DNA of 45,823 bases, taken from assembly GCA_026390435.1 (NCBI GenBank), contig JAPLFY010000031.1:248614-294436 (forward strand), read 5' to 3'. Shown one piece after another: positions 1,083 to 15,349 of the stretch; positions within the stretch are counted from its first letter, which is position 1; each line of letters starts with the position of its first letter. The position numbers and the translations under genes are program-made. The notes below the pieces were generated by a model that was given only the letters and a program-made list of their open reading frames with translations, did not search any database and had not been told where the DNA came from. This DNA comes from Pseudomonadota bacterium (GTDB lineage Bacteria; Bdellovibrionota_B; Oligoflexia; Oligoflexales; CAIYRB01).

Positions 1083-3302
1083 ATGGTAAGCAACTTAACT
1101 AGCGCACAGTGCAGAATCCTTGTAGTGGATCCATCGGGGCCAGTGCGGCAACTGATGTCAGACACACTGCGTAAAGTTCGCAACTTTGAGTCCATTGAAA
1201 GTCGCAGCAGTATTAACGACGCGCTCGAATACCTAGAGGCTGATGTTGCTGATTGGCTCTTGCTGCCGCTCTCAGCCGATCAACCGGTGAATGCCCTTCA
1301 TATACTCAAACTTTGCACCGAGACGCCGTCACTGCGCCACACCCGAGTCTCCCTGTTTGTGAATGAAGAAGAGTATTTTGTATTACCGAAGGCCTTCGAA
1401 CTCGGATGTCTCTCGTACCACACAAAGCCCTTCACTAAGGACACTCTGACATCTGATCTAACTGAATTGTTCACGGTCTTTGACTCACACCAGGCCAACG
1501 AAACTCTGATTTCAGCACATTACCTGAGACAGCATCTGACCAAGAACAAAGATTACGCGGCGATTGCAGAACTCCAAAAAGCGCTGCTTACACTAATTCC
1601 TGGTGACATTAAAACACTGCTGCATTTAGCCGAACCTCAATTTCACCTCGGCAACCCAGAGATGGCTCGCAAGACGCTGCGGCAGGTCAAACTTCTGGAT
1701 GACAATCTTAAGGAGCAAGTGGACCAAGTCGCAAAGAGCTTATTTCCCGATGAGTCACTTGATCCTAGCGCCGAAGACATCACTGGCACTATCAACATCA
1801 TCGATACGGATAATGCAATCATCATAGATCCAGATGAGGCATCTGCAACAGCCGTCGAGGAAGTCTTAAAAAGTTTAGGCTGCGCGAACATCAAACGCTT
1901 CTCAGATGGACAGAGTGCCTGGGATTACCTGGAAAAAAATCCTGAGCCAGAACTAATTTTCATGGAATGGCGGATTCCTAAAGTCAGTGGTCCATCGATC
2001 ATTCAACGAATCCGCCTTCATGGATTTTATTCGGTACCCATCTTTATCATAAGCTCTTTGATCAAGACCGAGGACACACCTCTTTTAAAGGAAATAGGCA
2101 TAGCTAATACCATGGAAAAACCGTTGGTAAGGGAGCGCTTCATTCCGACTCTTTTACACACGATCCGTCAGGAGCGACGACCAACAGAGCATGCTGTCCT
2201 CGAGCGAAAGTTCCACATGCTTCTAAACGGCGACCAAATTAGCGAAGCCGAGCCGCTGCGACTTCAAATCCTTAACGACAAGTCGATACCGACTGGACGT
2301 AAGCGACTGATAGAGGCCGCCTTCAGCTTGGCCAAAAAGGATTACGATTCCGCGCGAGAATCGGCTTTTGACGCGCTAAAACTACTCGGAGAACAAATCG
2401 AAGTCCTCAACGTGCTGGGCAAGACTCTCATGCGGCTAAATAACTTCGAAGCTGCTCTAAAATGTTTCAAAAAGGCCCAGGATCTGTCACCAAACAATAT
2501 CGAACGCCTATGCCTAATCGCAGAGTCAGAGTCCGAACTTGGCAACGAAAAAGGCACTGCTGACGCCTTAGCACAAGCCAGCGCCGTTGATTCTGGGTCA
2601 GCTGCTGTTGCCCAAGCTGCAGTGAAAGCAGCGGCGAAGAAAATTATGAGCTCGTTCGAGAACATAAAAAATATCGTATCTTATATGAACAACATGGCCG
2701 TTAGTCTAGCGCGCTCAGAAAAATATGAAGAGTCTATCGAACTATATAATAAGACTGCCGAGTCTATCCCCGAAGACCGCAAAGACCTCCAGGCCATCGT
2801 TGGATACAATACAGCATTGGCGAAAATACGTTCAGGCGATCTTAAAGGGGCGTTAGTCAATCTAGAGATTGTGGAAAAAATCAAAGACTCAAAACTCAGC
2901 GAAAAATCAACGCTACTAGCCGAAAAATTGCGACTGGCTACAGAAACCGGAGCGAAGGTCAAGCTGCGCTCGAGCAAGCCCAAGGAAGATGCTAGTCCTC
3001 AAGCTGCTGCAGATAAAAATGCAAGCGTCCAAAACCCTGACGGCCAACAATCAGCACACTCAACTGCCACAACAGAGACGCCAGCGGTCAGCAAAACAGA
3101 GTTCAAACTCAGAGCCGAGAATCAAGCAAAGCAAATGCTAGCCATGGTAGATGTAAAAAGAGGCGATGTCTGCTGCTTCATGATTTACTCTAGCCCTAAT
3201 CCGCCGAACTCAGGGCTCGCGCCACTATTAGAGAAGGTCCCCGTATATAAACCTCGCGACACCATAACGCGCAAAAAGTCGTTCACTGGTACTGCCCGAT
3301 AA
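1083..3302 (+). CDS. TPR protein with two degenerate receiver (REC) domains
   Basis: 739 aa. Residues about 10-135 and 245-365 each have the CheY-like fold pattern (ILVVDPSG...HTKPF and AIIIDPDE...MEKPL), keeping the switch Lys of the KP motif. Neither has the acceptor Asp: in the first the site reads LLLPLSAD, and in the second it is Glu295 (FMEWRIPKVSG, where active members have MDxxMP). These are pseudo-receivers, and Glu could mimic constitutive phosphorylation. Residues about 385-640 are TPR-like helices (for example EQIEVLNVLGKTLMRLNNFEA), followed by an Ala/Ser/Lys-rich tail. No signal peptide, so cytoplasmic. The start is ATG behind GGGTGG. Its last 20 bp overlap the 3' end of the opposing CHAT gene. 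Role unknown, probably a scaffold. Confidence 0.8.
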   Translation: MVSNLTSAQCRILVVDPSGPVRQLMSDTLRKVRNFESIESRSSINDALEYLEADVADWLLLPLSADQPVNALHILKLCTETPSLRHTRVSLFVNEEEYFVLPKAFELGCLSYHTKPFTKDTLTSDLTELFTVFDSHQANETLISAHYLRQHLTKNKDYAAIAELQKALLTLIPGDIKTLLHLAEPQFHLGNPEMARKTLRQVKLLDDNLKEQVDQVAKSLFPDESLDPSAEDITGTINIIDTDNAIIIDPDEASATAVEEVLKSLGCANIKRFSDGQSAWDYLEKNPEPELIFMEWRIPKVSGPSIIQRIRLHGFYSVPIFIISSLIKTEDTPLLKEIGIANTMEKPLVRERFIPTLLHTIRQERRPTEHAVLERKFHMLLNGDQISEAEPLRLQILNDKSIPTGRKRLIEAAFSLAKKDYDSARESAFDALKLLGEQIEVLNVLGKTLMRLNNFEAALKCFKKAQDLSPNNIERLCLIAESESELGNEKGTADALAQASAVDSGSAAVAQAAVKAAAKKIMSSFENIKNIVSYMNNMAVSLARSEKYEESIELYNKTAESIPEDRKDLQAIVGYNTALAKIRSGDLKGALVNLEIVEKIKDSKLSEKSTLLAEKLRLATETGAKVKLRSSKPKEDASPQAAADKNASVQNPDGQQSAHSTATTETPAVSKTEFKLRAENQAKQMLAMVDVKRGDVCCFMIYSSPNPPNSGLAPLLEKVPVYKPRDTITRKKSFTGTAR

Positions 3303-6300
3303 CCCGAAAAGACGACCAGTAAGCCGGATGCTGAAAGTACTTCCTAACTACTAATTGCGCCTTCCGCATTGATTCGGCCTTATCTGACCCCTCAGACAAA
3401 TAGCGATAAAAGCGCTTCATTACCACTGCGCTAGCGACATCGTTGATTCGCCAAAGGCTAGAAACTACGGTCTTCGCACCAGCATAGAAGAGTGCTCTGT
3501 CCATCCCAACCACATCATCCGCGCGGGAGATGCGGCCAAGACCAGTATCACAAGCGGAAAGAGTGACCATATTAGCGTTCAGCGGCAAGGTAAACATATC
3601 AGCTACGGTCAGCGAGCCCTCCTTCGTATCAGTGGGGGCCAGCAGTAGCCTCGACTCGCTCGGCGCAGCTGGACGAAATTCCCCATGCACCGCTAAATGC
3701 AGAATATCCGCTGTCGGAGCCGCGTCAAAAGCCCGTGCCTTGGTCGCGTCCCTCCCGACATAAAGTTTTCTTTGCGGAAAATACCGACCGATAACGCCGC
3801 CCTCTTTTTCTGCAAACGGCAAATCAGCCAGCATCGATCCATCAACGTGAGGATTCGCAATGGCCGTGATTTGAGTGTCTCTAGTAAATGGTTTGCCATG
3901 ACCGACTAAAGTGAACTTAGCCATGGTCGCGCTGTCTAAATAAAACAGCGGGAATTGGTCGATCATCAAAGCATGCTTGCTAACTGGCAGAGCCGCGAAT
4001 GGGACAAAATGAAGACTGCCATGAGGCACAATCGCCAACCTCTTGGCGCCGGATAATTCTTTGCTTACTGGTGCGATCAGAACATCTGCCAACTCCTGGC
4101 CTAGGTAATCAGGACTCGAATAGTTTTCCATTAACTCGCGAAAATCACGAACCCGGTCACCCAGGTCCTTGGAACTTATAGGCACCACCTTGCCACTGAT
4201 ACGCCCATCCTTGAGCACCCAAATCAGCAGTTGATCCTTGGTCACATGATATTCAATGACAGCCGTATCGCGGCCTACGAGCTCTGCTAGGTCGAGCGCC
4301 CCTATAGCACTAACCTTATCAAATTCAGAATCTTGCGCCTTATTGAGGCGGTTCATACCGGCAAGGCGCATCTTTTGCGATCCTAAGGCATCGATAAATG
4401 CCCGGCTACGGGAACGCTCACTAATATTCCAGGCCGACTCGACCTCCCCAAGATGCATGAGTAGAGCAGAATAATCAGAGTAAACGTTCTGAACACCCGC
4501 ATCAGAAAAGAAACCGCTACGAGATTCATCCGATTGCAGACCAGCGCGCATCGACTCTATAACTTGAACGGACTTTTCGTAGGCCAATTTTGCATCGGCC
4601 AAATCATTCATGTTACGCTGTGCTGCTGCTAACCCGGCATATGCGCGCCACACCATGTCACGCATGTAACCTTTCTCCGAAATGGCGAGTGCTTTCTTAA
4701 ATAATTCCTCCCCATCTCTCCATTGACTTTGGCGCATCGCGATATCAGCCAGACCAAAATTACAATAGGCCGCATTATACACCTGATTGAGCGCCTCACT
4801 CTCGATCAACGCCTGCTTCAACAGTTGTGTGGCGCCATTATAGTCGCCTTTTAAAATCAAACTTAGCCCAAGGTTACGATTATCAAAGGCAACGGCACTG
4901 CGAGATTTAAGTTCCTCATCGATACGCAGAGCCGTATTAAAAAACTTAATAGATTCGTCGACTGCCCCGTAGTCCCGCGCCCAAAAACCATAGTTGTTGT
5001 ACAACAGAGCAATTTGGCTCTTTAGCCCATAAGATTCGGCGATCGTTATCGCTTCATGGAAATCGGCAAACGCCTGCTTAAACTGACCCAGCTTCGCTTC
5101 AATCATCGCTCTAAGGCCAATGACGTCAATCCGCGCATTCACGCCGCTCGTTTTGTTGTCGATCTTGTCGGCTTGCGCAAGAGTCTGCTGATTAAGATCT
5201 TGTGCCTTCTGAAATAATCCCGCTCGGTAGTAAGCATTCGCCAACATCTGTGTGGCTCGCACCCATAGCAACCGCTGTTTGCTTGGATCGATCTTTGGAA
5301 TCACGTGTTGTTCCAACGAATCAATTGCGCCCTCAAGCTCGCCAATCACCATACGGGCATTAGCGGCATCAATGAGCACTGGCACATAAAGATCCGGTCG
5401 GCCCATCTTTTGAAAGGAGATAGCGGCCTGATTATAGTAATCAAGCGCCTTTTGATAGGAGCTAAGGTACCTGTTATAGACATTGCCAATGTTTAATAGT
5501 TGATTGGCTGCCTCTTCTGGCTTGCGCTGACGGTAAAATCCTTCCGCTTTCGTATAGGCCGCAATAGTGTCTTCATATTTCTTTTGATTCTCAAAATTGA
5601 TGCCTCGATATTGCCATATCTTCCCGAGAAGGTCGGTCATACCCTCTTCAGTGAAAATGGCCTCGGCTTCATCAAATAATTTTGACGCTTGTTCAAAATG
5701 ATTTGCTCTAACAGCGAGCACGGCGGCGTCAACAGCCGCATTTGCATAGTCAACTGGGTCCAAATCCGCATCTTGCGTCTTAGTGCCTGCCGCGCCAGGA
5801 TGGGGCTTAATTTTCTCGGCAATTATTAGCTGATAACGCAGCGCCGCGTCGAAATCACGATTCTGGAAGAGTACACCAACCAACTTCTTCCGCAGGATAT
5901 CTTCAGATTTCTGATCATCAAGTCTCTGCGCATAATAAAGTGCGCGCTTGTATGCAAAGGCAGCGGCCTCATAATCACGATCAGCGGCGGCATCCTCCGC
6001 CTCTTCGCTAGATCCTTCCAAATGACTCTTTGCGAAGCTCACTTCATCCTGTGCTGGAATACCGGGATAGCCTAAAATTCGACCAGAAACCCGGGCATCA
6101 GTTTTCGCCTCAGCCATAGACATGGTGCCTAGGGCCTTGTAAAACTTCTTCCAGTCCACAGTTTTTTGCTCGTTTACCAGTAGGACCGTCGGGGTGCCTG
6201 TTGCCAGCGCCGCCAGCGTGATGGCAGCCCAGCCATCATAAACCTTGCCACCTGCACCCACTGCACCACTTGCTTGCAGGTCAGTGTTGATCCTTTGGAC

Positions 6301-9300
6301 GTCGTTTAAAATAATGCCCGCAGTAGTGGGCAGATGGATTTGCGCCAGACTACGCAAATTTATATCGTTACGGTATGCTAGTGCTTCTTGGCCGCCACCA
6401 ACTATGGTGCTTGACGCCGGCTCGACATCATTGAGCAGCAGCGGCAGTTCTATATGCAACAAATCGAATGCCGAAAACTTTTCGCCGATTGGGCCGGCCG
6501 CGTCGAGAGTAACCTGATCGAACAGTCTTCCTTCGTTACCTATCTTGACCGCGTCTAAAGTGGCTGCAGATGGCGACTGAATTGCTACATAACCCAAGCT
6601 AGCTTTGGTTAAGCGCCTACCCGACGACACCACCGGTAGCAAATCGGGAGACGGAATAAACGTGATGGTTTTTGCCGCAGCCAGCGTCTCACCTCTCCAC
6701 TTCACTGACTCCCAGTCCACATCGTAAAGTTCGTCATCTGGAACAAGGTATATATTTCCACCCTTGTGAGCCAAAGCAGCTACTAATGCCTTATTAATAA
6801 AAACTGGAGCAAAGCTTTCTGCCCTAAGCGACTGCCTTGCAGGCATTGCTGGCAATGAAAATTTGATAACCTCTTCCTGTTCCTTAGTCATAATCCAGGC
6901 GTATACATCATTGGCACGGTGGCGATGGAGCATAATTACTGCGTCTGCATCGCCTAAATTTGCGCGAATTTTTGCCGTTTCGTTGCGGCTCAGTAGTTTT
7001 GTGATCTGAGCATCTACCAGTCCCAGACGTCGACTCAAGTCGGTCACATGCAGCAATGCATACCGCTGCATTAGGGCGCTGGATTTCTGCATATTATTTG
7101 AACTATACGCGGAGGCTATTAGTTGCTCAAAGAGAGTGCGTGCCAGTGCGCGGTCCGCAGGCGTAGCTAAACTACCGCCGCCTTTTAGATGGCGCTCCAA
7201 TGCCTCAAATGAAAGGTCGAAGTAACCCGCCGAGTAATGAATTTTCCACTCTAAATTTGGTGTCTTAATAGCCCTTTCTCGAAAGCCACTTAAAAGAGTC
7301 TGAGTAGTTGCGGCGGCGGCTTTGTTAAGACCCAGATAATCTAACGTGAGCAAAGGTCCGGAAGTCGCGGCCTCGGGCAGCTTAGCCTCGTGCATTACCA
7401 ATAATGATTCTTCGACCTGTGATCTTGCGATATCTTTAGGCGCTGAGCTGCTACTGGCCTTAAGAGATCCTGCAATGGCTAAAGTCTGAGCAAACACTTT
7501 CGCCTGAACTCGGGCACCCCCTTGATAAATGACGCGCATTTGCTCTGCCATAGCATCCAACGACTTTTCTTCATCGACTAAGTCGGCAACCGGCAACACC
7601 CCAAGGCTCGCTAGTCGCAACTCAATACGCGATCTATTTAGCCGATTAGTGACTTCTGCGGGTGAAGGATCTTTTTGGTCTTTTGCACGCCTTTTCTTCG
7701 CTGTGCTCTCGGCATTCGTAAACGACTCGCGCGCCTTACCGTGTAGACCTATCTTTAGCTGGAGATCCCCGATGTTATTTTCCAGAATGCTGATCTCTTC
7801 CGCCCTGGACAACTTATCGCCCTGAGCCTGCCTAAGTAAGGCGAGCTTCATCTGATAAGTAGCTAAAGCTAGATCCGGCCGGTCGAGTTTTTCATAGATC
7901 TTCGCGCGAAAGGTCAAAAGTAGCAGCCGCCGAGAAAATAGATCAAAACCCTTGGATGATGACCCGCCTCCGCCCAAGTCCACTTTGATAGCATCGGCCT
8001 GACCGTTGCCATTGGTCACTTTTCCATCAGCATTCTCGAGCGCTGTCAGTTTGGCGTCGGCCTCCGCAAAGTACTCTAGCGCCTGGTTTTGCTCTTTATT
8101 CATAAATGAGCAGTAACCGAGATTAGATAAAGTCCCGATTGCATTCACATCTTGGCCGAGGCGCTGCTCCGTACGCAGCAAGCGCAGATAAATCTCCTTT
8201 GCTTCTGAAAACTTATCTCTTTCGCGCAAAGTCAATGCCAAAGCATCAAGCGAGTAAGCGATCCTCTGATCATTACCGACACGCTCCCAGGCCGTCAGCG
8301 CTTGGCGCTGCAGGTTCTCGGCTAATTCAAGCTCTTCAATCTGAAAGGCCGAACGACCGGCGCGTTCGAACACTATGGATTCTGCCCTGGGGTCACGCAT
8401 TGGGATCAATGGAAGCAGTTTGATCCTCTGGAGATAATAGAACAGACTCTTTTGAAAATTACTCATTGCGTAATAAACCACGCCAAGATTCTGATCGAGG
8501 CTTGCACGTTCCAGTGATGCTGGCCGACTTAGATAGTAAGCATTCTGATAAGATTCGAGCGCCAACTCACGCCAGTCGGGATCACCAATGCCGAGGAAAT
8601 CCCCGACTAAATCCAGCCGGTAGTTTAGGGACCCCATAATTCCCGAACGCTGGTATTGACGCACAAAGAAGTTTTTTTGGATGTACAACCAACCTAGAGT
8701 CTGATGGATATATAAACTCTGCGAGTTTATTTGCCTTGCTACCTCAATAGTCTTGATTGCTGTATTAATTGACCTGAGACGCTGACGCAGACTTTCTGCC
8801 TGATCGACATCGTAAGTCTGAGCGTAACCGAATATATAGGTCCATTCGGCGACAGTTGGATGCTCCTTAGCGAGCTTCTCATATTCAGATTTGACCTGAC
8901 CCAGCTCATGGCGCATGAACGATGCGTCGATGCGACCCCGGTGCGCTGGTATATTAAGAGGCTCCAAAGCGAGCACTTTGGCATACTCTTTTAGAGCCAT
9001 TCCAGACTCTTGAAGCTTGAGCAGACCTTCACCGCGGTTGAGCAAAAAATCAATCATGAGTCTTTGGGCCTTGGTTTTTTGATCCGAGGATTTTCCTGCC
9101 ATGCTTTGCTGAAGTTGCGCCAGCATCATCTGGGCAGCCTCAAAACGCTGTGCCTCCTGCTCCAGCACCACAAGACGAGACGCCGCTTGCAACTGGATCT
9201 CTGGTGACTCTGGATAGGCGGCTACGATTTGACGCAGTTCATTTGCAGCTACCGTCTTTTTGCCTTCCGCGAGAAAGATTTCGGCAATTCTAAAATGAGC

Positions 9301-11070
9301 CACAGCTGGGACCAACGGCACTCCCTTAGCATCGGTACGCAGCTTAAGCAGCGCCTCCATCCGGTTGGGTCTTCCTTCCGCCAAGGCGGTCGCGACCTGC
9401 GCGGCTCTTAATGCCGCGTCTCTATTCTGCGAATATTTAGCGGCAACCTCACGAAGTGCGCGAATCGCTGTGTCAATATCAGATGTGGCCGGAGTAATTA
9501 CAGCAGCATAGAGAGCGGCCTCCGCCGCCAGGCTGTAGCCATTTTCCTTGTCCTTCTCCTTGTCAGCTGAAGCAACTAAAGCAGCAAGAGTCTGATTGGC
9601 GGCAAAGAATTCTCGTTGAGCCGCTTGCAGCTTAGCTTTCAGAAGTAAACCTTTCGCACGCACGCGGGATAACTTTTCACCCGATTGAGCTATTTGCAGC
9701 TGCACACTTTCCAGAAGGTTGCCAATAAGTTGCTTTTGCTCATCGTCTAGCTGCGCAACATATTGCGGATACCCAATGGGCTCCAACTCAAGACCAATCA
9801 TCGCTAACGATGCCAGGGCTACAATCTCGGATTTATCTTTAAAGTTTGCTTTGATCTTGGCAAAAGTCCACTCAGCCTCACGCCGACGACCATGTCTAGC
9901 CACCCATTCGAGTTCCATGAGTGCACATTCGGCTGCTGCATCCAACTGCTGGGTAGCGTAAAAATCTGCCGCCGCGCGGCGCAGAAGATAAGTTTTTTCG
10001 TCGTAGTCATCTCGCCTTGCAACCTGCGCGTTCACCGTAGCTAAATCAGAGCCAGCCTTTGCCTGACCTGAGGCTGGCAGGCGAAATATGTTGAGACCTT
10101 CATTCGTCTGTAGTGCAAAGAAGAGAAAAGGTCCTCTCAACTGCGGAGAATAAGCACCAAATGCAGCCGCAGTGAGCGGCCTTATGCTGTAGTTTTCTTT
10201 GCCATTGACCGCACTTTGCGATGCAATATCTGCAGTCCAGATGGTGGGGCGGTCGTCTCCGTTTAATTTGCCATCACGATTGGTGTCATCTGCATAGCGG
10301 ATAAAGACGATGCTTTTATTATCTGGAGAAAACTGCGGCTGACCGTCCTGCACCACGCCGCCTTCGGTCAGCTTAGTCGTTGTTTTATTCGCTAAAAGAT
10401 GCAGGTAAAGGGCGCCGTTTTTTACAAAAGTGATCATTCTTCCATCGCGCGACACACTCGGTTGATCACCGGTCAAGTCGGCAAGTGGAAGTGCCGTGAG
10501 TTCCTTCAGGTCCACTATCATTAGAGTTGGAATCTTCTGCCCGGTCTTGCGCGCTGAAAACACCAGCTTTTTTCCGTCCGGAAACCACGAAGGATTGGTA
10601 TCCTCTGACTGAGGTAGATTCACATGGTCCACACTACCTTCACCTTGACCGAGAATTTCTCGGAACGAGAAGCCAAGATCGATAACCTCAAGGTCACCGG
10701 CAGCGTCATGTCGCCGAGATATAAAGGCCAATCGCTTCCCATTTGGGCTTAGCACTGGCGCGAAATCGTCAGCCGGATGACGAGTCACCTGCTTACCAAA
10801 CCCACCTATAGTCCGCTTGAGCCAAATCTCCTTATTTCCGTTCCGATCTGAGGTATAGAAAACGTAGCTGCCGGTTGGTGTTAAATCGGGAGCAAAATTC
10901 GACTCGTTACCTGCAGTGACTTGCAAAGGCATCTGAAAAGCCGAGGCAGAGTCTGTCGACTCCGCTTTCACAGACTCTGTGAATGAATTCCCCCGGCAGC
11001 CGCCCAATGCATCAATAATTAACGCGGTCGCAAAGACTCCCCCCCACGACCTCTTGTTGTTTGAGCTCAT
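3283..11070 (-). CDS. Giant CHAT-protease lipoprotein: beta-propeller, TPRs, pseudo-CHAT, TPRs, active CHAT
   Basis: 2595 aa. The N-terminus has a short hydrophobic segment and a lipobox-like LGGC (Cys25), although an Asp in the hydrophobic stretch is unusual. Residues about 50-330 carry TolB/PD40-type propeller repeats (FAPVLSPNGKRLAFIS, PSWFPDGKKLVFSA). TPR-like helices fill about 350-1350. Residues about 1370-1650 resemble a CHAT domain lacking its catalytic pair. TPRs with the typical ALRIDEE/YNNYG pattern run about 1690-2230. The C-terminal CHAT domain (about 2290-2595) is intact, with His2462 (HLAVHGEF), Cys2507 (VTLSACDTGLG) and the SSLWRINDVAS motif. CHAT proteins are caspase/separase-like Cys proteases. 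The ATG overlaps the stop of the upstream YdbL-like gene by 4 bp, so it is translationally coupled. Substrate unknown; probably periplasmic. Confidence 0.88.
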   Translation of the reverse strand: MSSNNKRSWGGVFATALIIDALGGCRGNSFTESVKAESTDSASAFQMPLQVTAGNESNFAPDLTPTGSYVFYTSDRNGNKEIWLKRTIGGFGKQVTRHPADDFAPVLSPNGKRLAFISRRHDAAGDLEVIDLGFSFREILGQGEGSVDHVNLPQSEDTNPSWFPDGKKLVFSARKTGQKIPTLMIVDLKELTALPLADLTGDQPSVSRDGRMITFVKNGALYLHLLANKTTTKLTEGGVVQDGQPQFSPDNKSIVFIRYADDTNRDGKLNGDDRPTIWTADIASQSAVNGKENYSIRPLTAAAFGAYSPQLRGPFLFFALQTNEGLNIFRLPASGQAKAGSDLATVNAQVARRDDYDEKTYLLRRAAADFYATQQLDAAAECALMELEWVARHGRRREAEWTFAKIKANFKDKSEIVALASLAMIGLELEPIGYPQYVAQLDDEQKQLIGNLLESVQLQIAQSGEKLSRVRAKGLLLKAKLQAAQREFFAANQTLAALVASADKEKDKENGYSLAAEAALYAAVITPATSDIDTAIRALREVAAKYSQNRDAALRAAQVATALAEGRPNRMEALLKLRTDAKGVPLVPAVAHFRIAEIFLAEGKKTVAANELRQIVAAYPESPEIQLQAASRLVVLEQEAQRFEAAQMMLAQLQQSMAGKSSDQKTKAQRLMIDFLLNRGEGLLKLQESGMALKEYAKVLALEPLNIPAHRGRIDASFMRHELGQVKSEYEKLAKEHPTVAEWTYIFGYAQTYDVDQAESLRQRLRSINTAIKTIEVARQINSQSLYIHQTLGWLYIQKNFFVRQYQRSGIMGSLNYRLDLVGDFLGIGDPDWRELALESYQNAYYLSRPASLERASLDQNLGVVYYAMSNFQKSLFYYLQRIKLLPLIPMRDPRAESIVFERAGRSAFQIEELELAENLQRQALTAWERVGNDQRIAYSLDALALTLRERDKFSEAKEIYLRLLRTEQRLGQDVNAIGTLSNLGYCSFMNKEQNQALEYFAEADAKLTALENADGKVTNGNGQADAIKVDLGGGGSSSKGFDLFSRRLLLLTFRAKIYEKLDRPDLALATYQMKLALLRQAQGDKLSRAEEISILENNIGDLQLKIGLHGKARESFTNAESTAKKRRAKDQKDPSPAEVTNRLNRSRIELRLASLGVLPVADLVDEEKSLDAMAEQMRVIYQGGARVQAKVFAQTLAIAGSLKASSSSAPKDIARSQVEESLLVMHEAKLPEAATSGPLLTLDYLGLNKAAAATTQTLLSGFRERAIKTPNLEWKIHYSAGYFDLSFEALERHLKGGGSLATPADRALARTLFEQLIASAYSSNNMQKSSALMQRYALLHVTDLSRRLGLVDAQITKLLSRNETAKIRANLGDADAVIMLHRHRANDVYAWIMTKEQEEVIKFSLPAMPARQSLRAESFAPVFINKALVAALAHKGGNIYLVPDDELYDVDWESVKWRGETLAAAKTITFIPSPDLLPVVSSGRRLTKASLGYVAIQSPSAATLDAVKIGNEGRLFDQVTLDAAGPIGEKFSAFDLLHIELPLLLNDVEPASSTIVGGGQEALAYRNDINLRSLAQIHLPTTAGIILNDVQRINTDLQASGAVGAGGKVYDGWAAITLAALATGTPTVLLVNEQKTVDWKKFYKALGTMSMAEAKTDARVSGRILGYPGIPAQDEVSFAKSHLEGSSEEAEDAAADRDYEAAAFAYKRALYYAQRLDDQKSEDILRKKLVGVLFQNRDFDAALRYQLIIAEKIKPHPGAAGTKTQDADLDPVDYANAAVDAAVLAVRANHFEQASKLFDEAEAIFTEEGMTDLLGKIWQYRGINFENQKKYEDTIAAYTKAEGFYRQRKPEEAANQLLNIGNVYNRYLSSYQKALDYYNQAAISFQKMGRPDLYVPVLIDAANARMVIGELEGAIDSLEQHVIPKIDPSKQRLLWVRATQMLANAYYRAGLFQKAQDLNQQTLAQADKIDNKTSGVNARIDVIGLRAMIEAKLGQFKQAFADFHEAITIAESYGLKSQIALLYNNYGFWARDYGAVDESIKFFNTALRIDEELKSRSAVAFDNRNLGLSLILKGDYNGATQLLKQALIESEALNQVYNAAYCNFGLADIAMRQSQWRDGEELFKKALAISEKGYMRDMVWRAYAGLAAAQRNMNDLADAKLAYEKSVQVIESMRAGLQSDESRSGFFSDAGVQNVYSDYSALLMHLGEVESAWNISERSRSRAFIDALGSQKMRLAGMNRLNKAQDSEFDKVSAIGALDLAELVGRDTAVIEYHVTKDQLLIWVLKDGRISGKVVPISSKDLGDRVRDFRELMENYSSPDYLGQELADVLIAPVSKELSGAKRLAIVPHGSLHFVPFAALPVSKHALMIDQFPLFYLDSATMAKFTLVGHGKPFTRDTQITAIANPHVDGSMLADLPFAEKEGGVIGRYFPQRKLYVGRDATKARAFDAAPTADILHLAVHGEFRPAAPSESRLLLAPTDTKEGSLTVADMFTLPLNANMVTLSACDTGLGRISRADDVVGMDRALFYAGAKTVVSSLWRINDVASAVVMKRFYRYLSEGSDKAESMRKAQLVVRKYFQHPAYWSSFRVIGQYQ

Positions 11071-11653: not shown

Positions 11654-14600
11654 TCAGCCTGCTTTGCTTGGGTCTTTATTGCTTTGGTCTTTGAAATTTT
11701 GCAAAATTTGTCTAATCGGAAAGCGCGTCAACTTCGGTGTTGGGATAGGTGCTGCAAGCACTCGAACGTCTACATCTAGACCAACTTCGCCATTGCGCAG
11801 TGGTATAGACACGCGTCGCACTTCACCCAGATTAAGAGCACCGCGGATGTCGGCTATCGTTGGATTTTGTTCATAGGGATCGACATAAAAAAGCATCATC
11901 TTCAATTGCTCTTTACCGATCGACGATATCTCAACATTTCCGGAAATATCGCTCGAGCTCACGTCAAAAAGAATATGAACCGTGGCGTCTATAAATGGAT
12001 TGGACAACAAGTCCCAGGACGAGGCTTTGCCCTTAAGATTAGGGAAACGCTCAATTAATTTACGAGTGTCTAGGCGCGTCAGATGTAGCGACGTCCATAT
12101 CTTTTTCGGAATCTTTGTCGGATCGGCTGCAGTCGAGTCGAAGGATAACTTAAAGTCACCTTCGATTTTGCCGCCAAGAAAGTCGATCAGGAACTGGTTG
12201 ACCGAGAAAAAGCTCTGTCGCAGTTCCATGTCAAATTCTAGGTTGCTCAGCTCTAGATTGGCCACGTCTACACGCTTAATCGATAACGGCCTCCGGTCGG
12301 GATAAAAAGGCCTTATGGAAGCATAGTCCACCATGGCGACAATATTTGTATCCACCGGCAGCTTACTGTCATTTTTCTTTAAAAACTTATCCATGGATCG
12401 ATCTAGAGCCTGAGCACCGGGATTAGACCTGCCGTTCGCATCAGAACTTGCCTCGCTCACTTCGATGACTGGGACAGTTGGAACAGCCGCAGTATTCTTT
12501 TGATCGGCGTTGACGGCGACGCCCGACTTCAGTGGCTCAGCTTTCGCCAAGGAACTTTGCTTCATCTTTTTGAGATCAGGCAGCCGCAGCGTCTGTTTAA
12601 AGGGAATTTCGCCGTCTATATCCTCAACCGCGAGTGTCGGTCGCTGGCCGATATCCTTGCCGGGTATCGTGACGTTAAAGTGATCAAACCTCGCTTGTCC
12701 ATTGACGGATAAATCACGCATATCCTCACTGGAAAGTGCCAGGTCAAATGCCGCCTTACCAGAGGTCTTAATACCGCCAGGTAGCTCTTCTCCGCCGCGG
12801 TGAGACATCTGGCTAGTGAATGTCAAATCTAAGCGCTGCGGTAAGTAGTCTTTATCAACCGTGGTGGATCCTTTAAGACCAACCGTCGCGCCTATATCAG
12901 AAACTTTGACCTTCAAATCCTTTAGCTTGAACGCGCTGAGTCCCTCTTGCCGTAAGGCAGCACTGAATTGAAAGTCAGTAATCGGTCGCGGCAGAGCGCC
13001 ATCTACCGCAATCTGCCCGACTACCAATTTGGTATCTAAATCTGTCCGAAGACGCTGCAACAAGGTAGGGACTTCCCTGATATCTAGGGGGCTGTCAATA
13101 TGGTTTTTAATCTTCGTTTCAAATGCAAACTGGCGCACTGAGATAGGCAAGGCCGGTGCATCAGGCTTCGCGTGGGCCAGTTTCAGGCCAGCAAATTTTT
13201 GCCTAAAGTCGACCGTCTGATCTTTAAGCGACCCAGACACAAGTAGCCGTGTCTCAGCACCGGTTAATTGCAACTGATCAAAAGGCACTTTGACACTGAC
13301 TTTGGCGATCTCTAGATTCGACTCGAAGTGAATATCGGCCTGCTTAATCAGCTCGGGCGTAGGTGTCTTTAGTGGATTTGGCAGCCTACCTCGAGCACTG
13401 CCTTTATAATCAATTTTACCGGCTAATTGTGTCGGCATGAATGAACCAAGATTCATTATGTCAGCGAGCGGAAGTGCAATGGCGTGAACTTTTGCCAGTG
13501 ACTCGACGTGCGCTTCAACGCTCGACAGCAGATGGTTACAAAAATTTTGACAATCGATCATCGCGGAAAGATTGGTCAGACCCTTTAGCTCTGCACGCGC
13601 TGCGACTGCGAACTGCGATAAATCCTGCCGACCTTGAGCATCCACATCGATGCTTAGAGGCACATCAACCGGCGCGATGTGGGAACCACTCGCAACGACT
13701 CGATCAGCCTCAATATTTACCTTAAAGACGGGAGCGACCTTCTCTGGCCATAAGGCCCGGGCGATCACCTTAGTGGTAAACCCATAAATACCAGCCTTAA
13801 TTTCACCAACTGGCGTGGTTCTTTGCGTTAAAATTTTCGGCGCCCGGATGTCGACTGCCACATCGATTTGAGAGCCCTTACTAGCTGCCGAAGGGCCGAC
13901 AGCAAAAGAGACCTCTCCATTTATAGGTGCCATGTCTAAGGCTAAACTCGGCAGTCCTCCAGCCACATCATGCAATCCGAGTTTAAGGGCAACCACTGGG
14001 AGCCCCACGCCCTCCGCAGCGGCCTTCGCCATAGTCGCCGGCTCAACGTTCCCGTCGATATGGAAATCCTCTAACGCGATGTCTCCCTGGGCCCGCAAGC
14101 CAGGAACAAAAGGCCGAGCAAGCATTGCTGCCGCAGCCAGATCCAACTCGAGTTTTTGCCGCAACTTCAAATTGATTGAGGAAAAACTGGCATCAGAGAT
14201 CCCGATCGCTCCCCCAAGCTCGTAGGCCAGCGCATCGGCAAGCTCCAAGTTTACTTCGTCGATTTTGATCCCTTTAAGATCATCGGCGAGGGCTAAGCGC
14301 ACCGTCAAATTGGTCAGTAGATCTTTATACGACGCCACTGGCGTGAACAGTTCTAGCAGTCGAGTCGATAGATCGATGTTCAAAAGCTTTAAATTTTGAA
14401 CTTCCAGGCGAAAACTGAGCGGCGCCTCAACCGTTAACGCTTTTTTGAGATCTCCGCCTAAGGCTGTCGCCTTCTGCATCTTAATCTTGAGAGCCTTTCC
14501 ATAAGGACTTAGGGACGAGACCCAAATGGAACTGTCCCGACCATGCCAATGCACTCCCAGATCGATGGACAATCCTTGGATCAAAGTTTGTTGCGCCGTC

Positions 14601-15349
14601 GTGGCATTCTTGCGATCCGCAGCCACGTCCATCTTGACGGTCAGATCCTTTATCCCCACGTTTTCCACAAGCAACCTGATCGGTAAACTCAGCGTCGAGG
14701 GATCTAGCGGCAGCAGAGCGGCGCCTTTTTTATCCGATATTGGCTCTTCAGGCGAAGGTGCCTCCGCAGCCTTTTTGGGGAAGTGTTCAGCACGGTATGC
14801 AAGAATCGGCTCGAAGTTGAAATGTCCGTCTTCTTTACGCAGGAGTAAGGTCGGCTCAATAAGCTGCAGGGCACGTAGGTGTATATAGCCGGCCAGAAGC
14901 TGCCGCGTGCTGTATTCAAAGCGAATTAGTCTCGCCCGAAGTAGCGGCACAGTTGCGACTGCACCGTCATTTAGACTGCCCCGCGTATCGCCGGCAACTG
15001 GCGGATATAAGCTGACCTCGTGCAGCCTGATGCCGGTGAACAAACCAAACTCGACTTGCCCTACTTCCAGTGATCCGCCCGTTTGTTCAGCGGCAAGGGA
15101 GATCAGTACTTTTTTGATTCTAGTCGGCGTGGCGGCGACATTGATGACCATCAATAAGATGGCCACCAGTCCGGCAGTCAGTACGCCTCCCCAGACCAGC
15201 AGGTGCAGCGACAAGCGCGCAAACTTTGAGCGCTTGAAGACCCGTGGGAGGGTCAACGACGGCCCAAGCCAGCCCCGCCGTTGCGGGGCAGTAGACGAAG
15301 GCTGCATGGGGCCTTCGTCATCCGGTGAGCTTGGACCTAGTGGTGACAC
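11654..15349 (-). CDS. AsmA-like (YdbH/TamB-type) envelope protein
   Basis: 1231 aa. A basic cytoplasmic N-terminus is followed by one membrane helix (about 50-72, LLVWGGVLTAGLVAILLMVI) and then a typical AsmA-type entry (IKKVLISLAAEQTGGSLEVG...FGLFTGIRLHEVSLYPP). The rest is long, repetitive beta-rich sequence that would lie in the periplasm, as in AsmA-like proteins that form hydrophobic grooves for phospholipid transfer to the outer membrane. Its operon partner is a YdbL-like lipoprotein, so YdbH is the closest functional analogue; I infer that from context more than from sequence. The GTG at 15349 lies 8 bp after pckA. ATG at 15307, preceded by GAAGG, is an equally plausible start and would remove 14 residues. 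Confidence 0.78.
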   Translation of the reverse strand: MSPLGPSSPDDEGPMQPSSTAPQRRGWLGPSLTLPRVFKRSKFARLSLHLLVWGGVLTAGLVAILLMVINVAATPTRIKKVLISLAAEQTGGSLEVGQVEFGLFTGIRLHEVSLYPPVAGDTRGSLNDGAVATVPLLRARLIRFEYSTRQLLAGYIHLRALQLIEPTLLLRKEDGHFNFEPILAYRAEHFPKKAAEAPSPEEPISDKKGAALLPLDPSTLSLPIRLLVENVGIKDLTVKMDVAADRKNATTAQQTLIQGLSIDLGVHWHGRDSSIWVSSLSPYGKALKIKMQKATALGGDLKKALTVEAPLSFRLEVQNLKLLNIDLSTRLLELFTPVASYKDLLTNLTVRLALADDLKGIKIDEVNLELADALAYELGGAIGISDASFSSINLKLRQKLELDLAAAAMLARPFVPGLRAQGDIALEDFHIDGNVEPATMAKAAAEGVGLPVVALKLGLHDVAGGLPSLALDMAPINGEVSFAVGPSAASKGSQIDVAVDIRAPKILTQRTTPVGEIKAGIYGFTTKVIARALWPEKVAPVFKVNIEADRVVASGSHIAPVDVPLSIDVDAQGRQDLSQFAVAARAELKGLTNLSAMIDCQNFCNHLLSSVEAHVESLAKVHAIALPLADIMNLGSFMPTQLAGKIDYKGSARGRLPNPLKTPTPELIKQADIHFESNLEIAKVSVKVPFDQLQLTGAETRLLVSGSLKDQTVDFRQKFAGLKLAHAKPDAPALPISVRQFAFETKIKNHIDSPLDIREVPTLLQRLRTDLDTKLVVGQIAVDGALPRPITDFQFSAALRQEGLSAFKLKDLKVKVSDIGATVGLKGSTTVDKDYLPQRLDLTFTSQMSHRGGEELPGGIKTSGKAAFDLALSSEDMRDLSVNGQARFDHFNVTIPGKDIGQRPTLAVEDIDGEIPFKQTLRLPDLKKMKQSSLAKAEPLKSGVAVNADQKNTAAVPTVPVIEVSEASSDANGRSNPGAQALDRSMDKFLKKNDSKLPVDTNIVAMVDYASIRPFYPDRRPLSIKRVDVANLELSNLEFDMELRQSFFSVNQFLIDFLGGKIEGDFKLSFDSTAADPTKIPKKIWTSLHLTRLDTRKLIERFPNLKGKASSWDLLSNPFIDATVHILFDVSSSDISGNVEISSIGKEQLKMMLFYVDPYEQNPTIADIRGALNLGEVRRVSIPLRNGEVGLDVDVRVLAAPIPTPKLTRFPIRQILQNFKDQSNKDPSKAG

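Follow-up and report, generated by a model that had tools for sequence, protein, structure and literature searches.

The window, a stretch of 45,823 nucleotides of contig JAPLFY010000031.1 from a Pseudomonadota bacterium (class Oligoflexia, order Oligoflexales), encodes a giant predicted lipoprotein of 2595 residues with two CHAT domains, the first of which almost certainly has the CHAT fold and has lost the His-Cys catalytic dyad in every ortholog aligned, while the second retains the dyad. The domains follow one another as a TolB-like propeller, a tetratricopeptide repeat (TPR) array, the dead CHAT domain, a second TPR array and the C-terminal CHAT domain, an order on which Pfam, profile and model evidence agree and which had been proposed in a first-pass annotation of this DNA. 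The combination of a dead CHAT with a dyad-bearing CHAT within one envelope lipoprotein, also proposed there, is borne out by the profile, model and register evidence described below. The gene stands in a fixed operon with genes for a DUF748/AsmA-like protein and a DUF1318 lipoprotein, and its product may be a scaffold in the periplasm for a YdbH-like lipid bridge, with the first TPR-CHAT unit turned structural.

A Pfam search with the single sequence of the middle domain gave no significant match, and among the orthologous middle domains 3 of 14 weakly matched CHAT (best E-value 0.023) and 2 of 14 matched separase C50 (best E-value 0.2). Orthologs with a region in the same place were found by a scan of 38 relatives, ten of which were aligned for a first profile. 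Comparison of this ten-ortholog profile with the C-terminal CHAT domains of the orthologs by hhalign gave a co-linear alignment (probability 84%, P = 7.5e-6), and with more rows of the C-terminal CHAT the probability was 95-96% (E-value 6e-9 to 2e-8, co-linear over approximately 290 columns), in agreement with the original claim that residues 1370-1650 or thereabouts follow the motif order of the C-terminal domain. The controls were clean: shuffling the columns of the middle alignment 200 times, in an earlier version of the comparison, gave a top score of 23.5 versus 47.3 for the real alignment, and other 366-residue segments of the giant protein scored below 25 unless they overlapped the middle domain. 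Alignment A3, which comprises the most divergent orthologs, lowered the hhalign probability to 11%; therefore the closer ortholog set was used for hhalign and A3 was kept for the AlphaFold2 model.

The AlphaFold2 model of residues 1340-1720, built from 14 sequences, has a predicted local distance difference test score (pLDDT) of 85.0 and a predicted template-modelling score of 0.88, and its top 12 PDB matches by Foldseek are all Csx29/TPR-CHAT or separase (E-value 3.6e-9 to 8.5e-6, probability 1.00). The C-terminal domain, which matches PF12770 at residues 2323-2592 (E-value 9e-61, 206 bits versus a cut-off of 24), gives a model with a pLDDT of 81 that returns the same PDB proteins (Csx29/TPR-CHAT and separase), with an E-value of 1e-16 and a template-modelling (TM) score of 0.63-0.70 to Csx29. 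The TM score of the dead domain to Csx29 is a modest 0.42-0.49, a value lowered in part by the flanking TPR helices of the query. The two models were compared through their secondary-structure register and their shared PDB matches, and not by superposition of coordinates: predicted secondary structure agrees at 72.6% of the hhalign-aligned positions with 6 helix/strand conflicts, versus 28-42% agreement and 27-68 conflicts in ten shifted registers. It is very improbable that the middle domain has some other alpha/beta fold and resembles CHAT by chance, as the empty Pfam search of the single sequence, the TM score below 0.5 and a hidden Markov model search of PDB sequences that found no CHAT might suggest, for this is contradicted by the profile comparison with its shuffled and within-protein controls, by a fold search topped only by caspase-like proteins, and by the secondary-structure register. 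A tblastn search of plasmids with the dead domain gave no match.

The hhalign alignment pairs His2462 with Pro1543 and Cys2507 with Val1591, at a spacing of 45 residues in the live domain and 48 in the dead one, which reproduces the correspondence first proposed. Neither His nor Cys is found at the catalytic columns of the middle domain in any ortholog aligned. With Pro and Val at the dyad sites, the middle domain is a CHAT homolog and not a CHAT protease. In the live domain His2462 and Cys2507 are invariant in seven orthologs and both dyad residues are present in 12 genomes; where they are present the second CHAT is probably a periplasmic cysteine protease. The segment IVPHGSLHFVPF, which the first-pass annotation had put within the live domain, aligns with FVPHDFLHRLP of Csx29, upstream of the catalytic lobe; thus a pseudo lobe is probably built into the live CHAT, and by this homology the middle domain is probably a second, complete, dead unit.

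Table 1. Features of the giant lipoprotein gene and its operon (positions in the window; residues are those of the 2595-residue protein).
Feature	Position	Strand	Evidence
Giant lipoprotein gene, propeller-TPR-dead CHAT-TPR-CHAT (stop codon included)	3283..11070	-	Open reading frame call, Pfam profiles
Signal peptide and lipobox ...DALGGC25 (predicted lipidated Cys25)	10996..11070	-	Sequence
TolB-like six-bladed propeller (PD40), residues ~46-350	10021..10935	-	PF07676, E-value 4e-28
First TPR array, residues ~351-1340	7051..10020	-	Pfam matches
Dead CHAT domain, residues ~1365-1670	6061..6978	-	Profile-profile comparison, AlphaFold2, Foldseek
Pro1543, in the place of the catalytic His	6442..6444	-	Alignment to C-terminal CHAT
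Val1591, in the place of the catalytic Cys	6298..6300	-	Alignment to C-terminal CHAT
Second TPR array, residues ~1671-2225	4396..6060	-	PF13424 stretches
C-terminal CHAT with His-Cys dyad, residues ~2255-2595	3286..4308	-	PF12770, AlphaFold2, Foldseek
His2462, catalytic by homology	3685..3687	-	Alignment
Cys2507, catalytic by homology	3550..3552	-	Alignment
DUF1318 (YdbL-like) lipoprotein gene, 193 residues	11067..11648	-	PF07027, E-value 1e-7, above cut-off
DUF748/AsmA-like (YdbH-like) gene, 1231 residues, first of the three-gene set	11654..15349	-	PF05359, E-value 8e-8, below curated cut-off

Long orthologs with a complete N-terminus have an N-terminal Cys behind a hydrophobic stretch, with the exception of the one in genome G007, and the propeller of the window protein also matches TIGR02800 (E-value 5e-21, under the cut-off). 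A convergent gene for a response-regulator/TPR protein of 739 residues (1083-3302 of the window) overlaps the end of the giant gene with its own end by 20 bases, and six other loci (L012, L013, L018, L049, L050 and L055) have a similar gene in the neighborhood of the CHAT gene.

In the comparison of the window with G002, its nearest relative, the ratio of nonsynonymous to synonymous substitution rates (dN/dS) is 0.25 for the dead domain versus 0.12 and 0.07 for the flanking TPR arrays, and in a second genome pair it is 0.10 for the dead domain versus 0.05-0.06 elsewhere. The dead domain is under purifying selection, yet it is the least constrained and fastest-evolving part of the protein in the genus of the window. 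In other families (G011, G022, G013, G035, G041 and G007) the middle domain is shortened to approximately 240-280 residues. G011 and G022, which belong to one family (L049, L050), have a middle region of approximately 275 residues that is weakly related to that of the window (link probability 5-31%), and their C-terminal CHAT is the best-conserved region (40-44% identity), with the dyad intact. The middle region of G013, G035 and G041 (L031, L032 and L052; approximately 267 residues) is related to that of the window at a probability of 98%, with most of the catalytic half missing; the C-terminal CHAT of these three genomes has lost both dyad residues, the protein and the operon still persist, and catalysis is dispensable in this one lineage. 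The middle regions of G011/G022, G040 and G013/G035/G041 give no direct match to the C-terminal CHAT and are linked to it through the middle domain of the window's family. G007 (L056) has a form of 2150 residues without a Pfam CHAT match, in which the Cys is retained and the place of the His is aligned to Gln. Genomes with a shortened middle domain and a live CHAT (G011, G022), those with a shortened middle domain and a dyadless C-terminal CHAT (G013, G035, G041), and the G007 form make up a natural erosion series. A separate protein of 934 residues in genome G004 (L053:5012-7813) has its CHAT at the N-terminus and TPR behind it, opposite to the usual arrangement, and its gene adjoins two short genes on the same strand.

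The DUF1318 gene runs 4 nucleotides into the giant gene, its stop codon overlapping the start codon there (ATGA), and the order DUF748-DUF1318-giant gene is kept on every contig that covers it. DUF1318 matches are found in 13 of the 56 genomes of the class, all 13 of them among the 14 with the giant CHAT gene; the fourteenth (G041) has the lipoprotein upstream as well, but it scores below the search threshold. DUF748-like genes without DUF1318 adjoin genes for secreted propeller-TPR proteins of 1136-1245 residues without CHAT (L057, L058, L059, L060, L061 and L062), which align with residues 46-1014 of the window protein. The DUF748 profile scores 31 and 41 bits versus a cut-off of 50, which is not reached in the window or in most orthologs, and the AsmA profile scores above its cut-off in the ortholog of L052 only. 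An open reading frame of approximately 130 codons with a lipobox-like start lies between the DUF748-like and propeller-TPR genes of L060. The DUF1318 lipoprotein of the window has a strongly conserved stretch after its lipid Cys, CTFNFDVTGQRTALENQ.

The reading that we favor, at a probability of about 0.5, is that the exported, probably outer-membrane lipoprotein acts as a scaffold of a YdbH-like (AsmA-superfamily) intermembrane bridge. The core of the protein would be the propeller and TPR, which other members of the class have on their own beside a DUF748 gene, and this core would have been extended by two TPR-CHAT units in the DUF1318-bearing subset. The first CHAT would have lost its dyad before the families split and would now be a folded spacer or docking block between two TPR solenoids, and the second, in which the dyad is usually kept, would contribute a putative protease activity that one lineage has been able to forgo. 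Several points weigh against such a scaffold. The likeness to YdbH is drawn from weak profile matches and gene order, and because the DUF748 score lies under the Pfam cut-off, the comparison with YdbH is a working analogy and not a family membership. Profile searches at the locus found no YnbE family; a lipobox is present on the DUF1318 protein, which may combine YnbE-like and YdbL-like roles. A shared operon does not prove a complex. The short forms could just as well have lost a larger domain as the long forms have gained one, these events not being taken from a formal tree, and because the genomes are related, the co-occurrences of DUF1318 with the giant CHAT gene do not count as independent.

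Internal regulation or substrate presentation, which the first-pass annotation had suggested, would have the dead CHAT bind or mimic a partner of the live CHAT, so that the protease is held inactive or the substrate is presented until a signal comes from the propeller or TPR, as in the allostery of separase and Csx29. Although the purifying selection on the dead domain is in keeping with this, the comparison of genomes does not support it as a conserved feature: the live CHAT of G011 and G022 remains well conserved beside an eroded middle domain, which argues against the dead domain as a conserved protease regulator, and the dead domain is also the least constrained part of the protein in the genus of the window. 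G013, G035 and G041 have kept the protein and operon after losing the dyad; retention or loss of the dead domain thus does not go hand in hand with that of the live dyad, and this speaks against tight regulation of one by the other as a conserved function. Homology with Csx29, moreover, gives the live CHAT a probable pseudo lobe of its own, and we regard regulation by the dead domain as unlikely. A reading of the dead CHAT as the decaying remains of a TPR-CHAT duplication, its role limited to keeping the chain folded, would fit the rapid evolution of the dead domain, its independent shortening in several families and the absence of parts of its catalytic half in G013, G035 and G041, but dN/dS values of 0.10-0.25, well below 1, and the persistence of reading frame and fold across families make this explanation doubtful. 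The proposal that an envelope CHAT protease, separated by TPR from its dead sister, is a dedicated component of a YdbH-like lipid bridge between the membranes and cuts or gates it upon a signal read by the propeller is quite unlikely; if true, it would mean proteolytic control of bacterial lipid transport.

The operon of the favored scaffold reading has its nearest known counterpart in E. coli, where YdbH works with the outer-membrane lipoprotein YnbE in phospholipid transport (PMC11784454), and where the ydbH-ynbE-ydbL locus restores growth of a tamB yhdP mutant on MacConkey agar (PMC8593681). The likeness is that genes for an AsmA-superfamily protein, a lipoprotein and a DUF1318 protein stand together; the difference is that here the predicted lipobox is carried by the DUF1318 protein itself, and no YnbE family member was found. 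The E. coli ydbH locus is not known to include a CHAT or propeller partner.

The best-known CHAT proteases are those of CRISPR-associated and other intracellular systems. An exported CHAT pair in a fixed operon with an AsmA-superfamily protein and a DUF1318 lipoprotein would link the protease fold to the building of the outer membrane, and the natural series of forms (dead and live, eroded and live, both dead, no CHAT) allows the role of the fold to be tested without catalysis. No tandem, pseudo or inactive CHAT units were found in a partial search of the published literature, and one single-sequence scan of genome contigs, short of a systematic search for two-CHAT proteins outside the class, found one close relative. 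DdvA (8rot), which resembles the C-terminal CHAT by Foldseek (E-value 3e-12) and by profile (E-value 3e-5), has the CHAT fold in a transmembrane anti-sigma factor, but it has one CHAT and an anti-sigma function. Separase (peptidase C50) is caspase-like, resembles Csx29, is described as having pseudo and active parts, and is a structural match to both domains described here; it is, however, eukaryotic and not an exported lipoprotein, and its pseudo part lies inside one protease region instead of forming a separate unit. The best structural match of both domains is Csx29 of the type III-E CRISPR system (Craspase), in which TPR is likewise followed by CHAT with pseudo-caspase and active lobes, the pseudo-caspase CHAT1 lying beside the active CHAT2 in a protein that resembles separases (PMC10028731). 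Csx29 belongs to an RNA-guided effector complex, whereas the protein of the window is an exported propeller lipoprotein, with no CRISPR context seen in the window, and has a second complete dead CHAT upstream, behind a TPR array of its own. The first-pass annotation had known of no described system with this layout; a pseudo lobe beside an active lobe is in fact the standard build of Csx29 and separase (PMC10028731), but a second, complete, dead CHAT that is separated by TPR and exported sets this protein apart from both.
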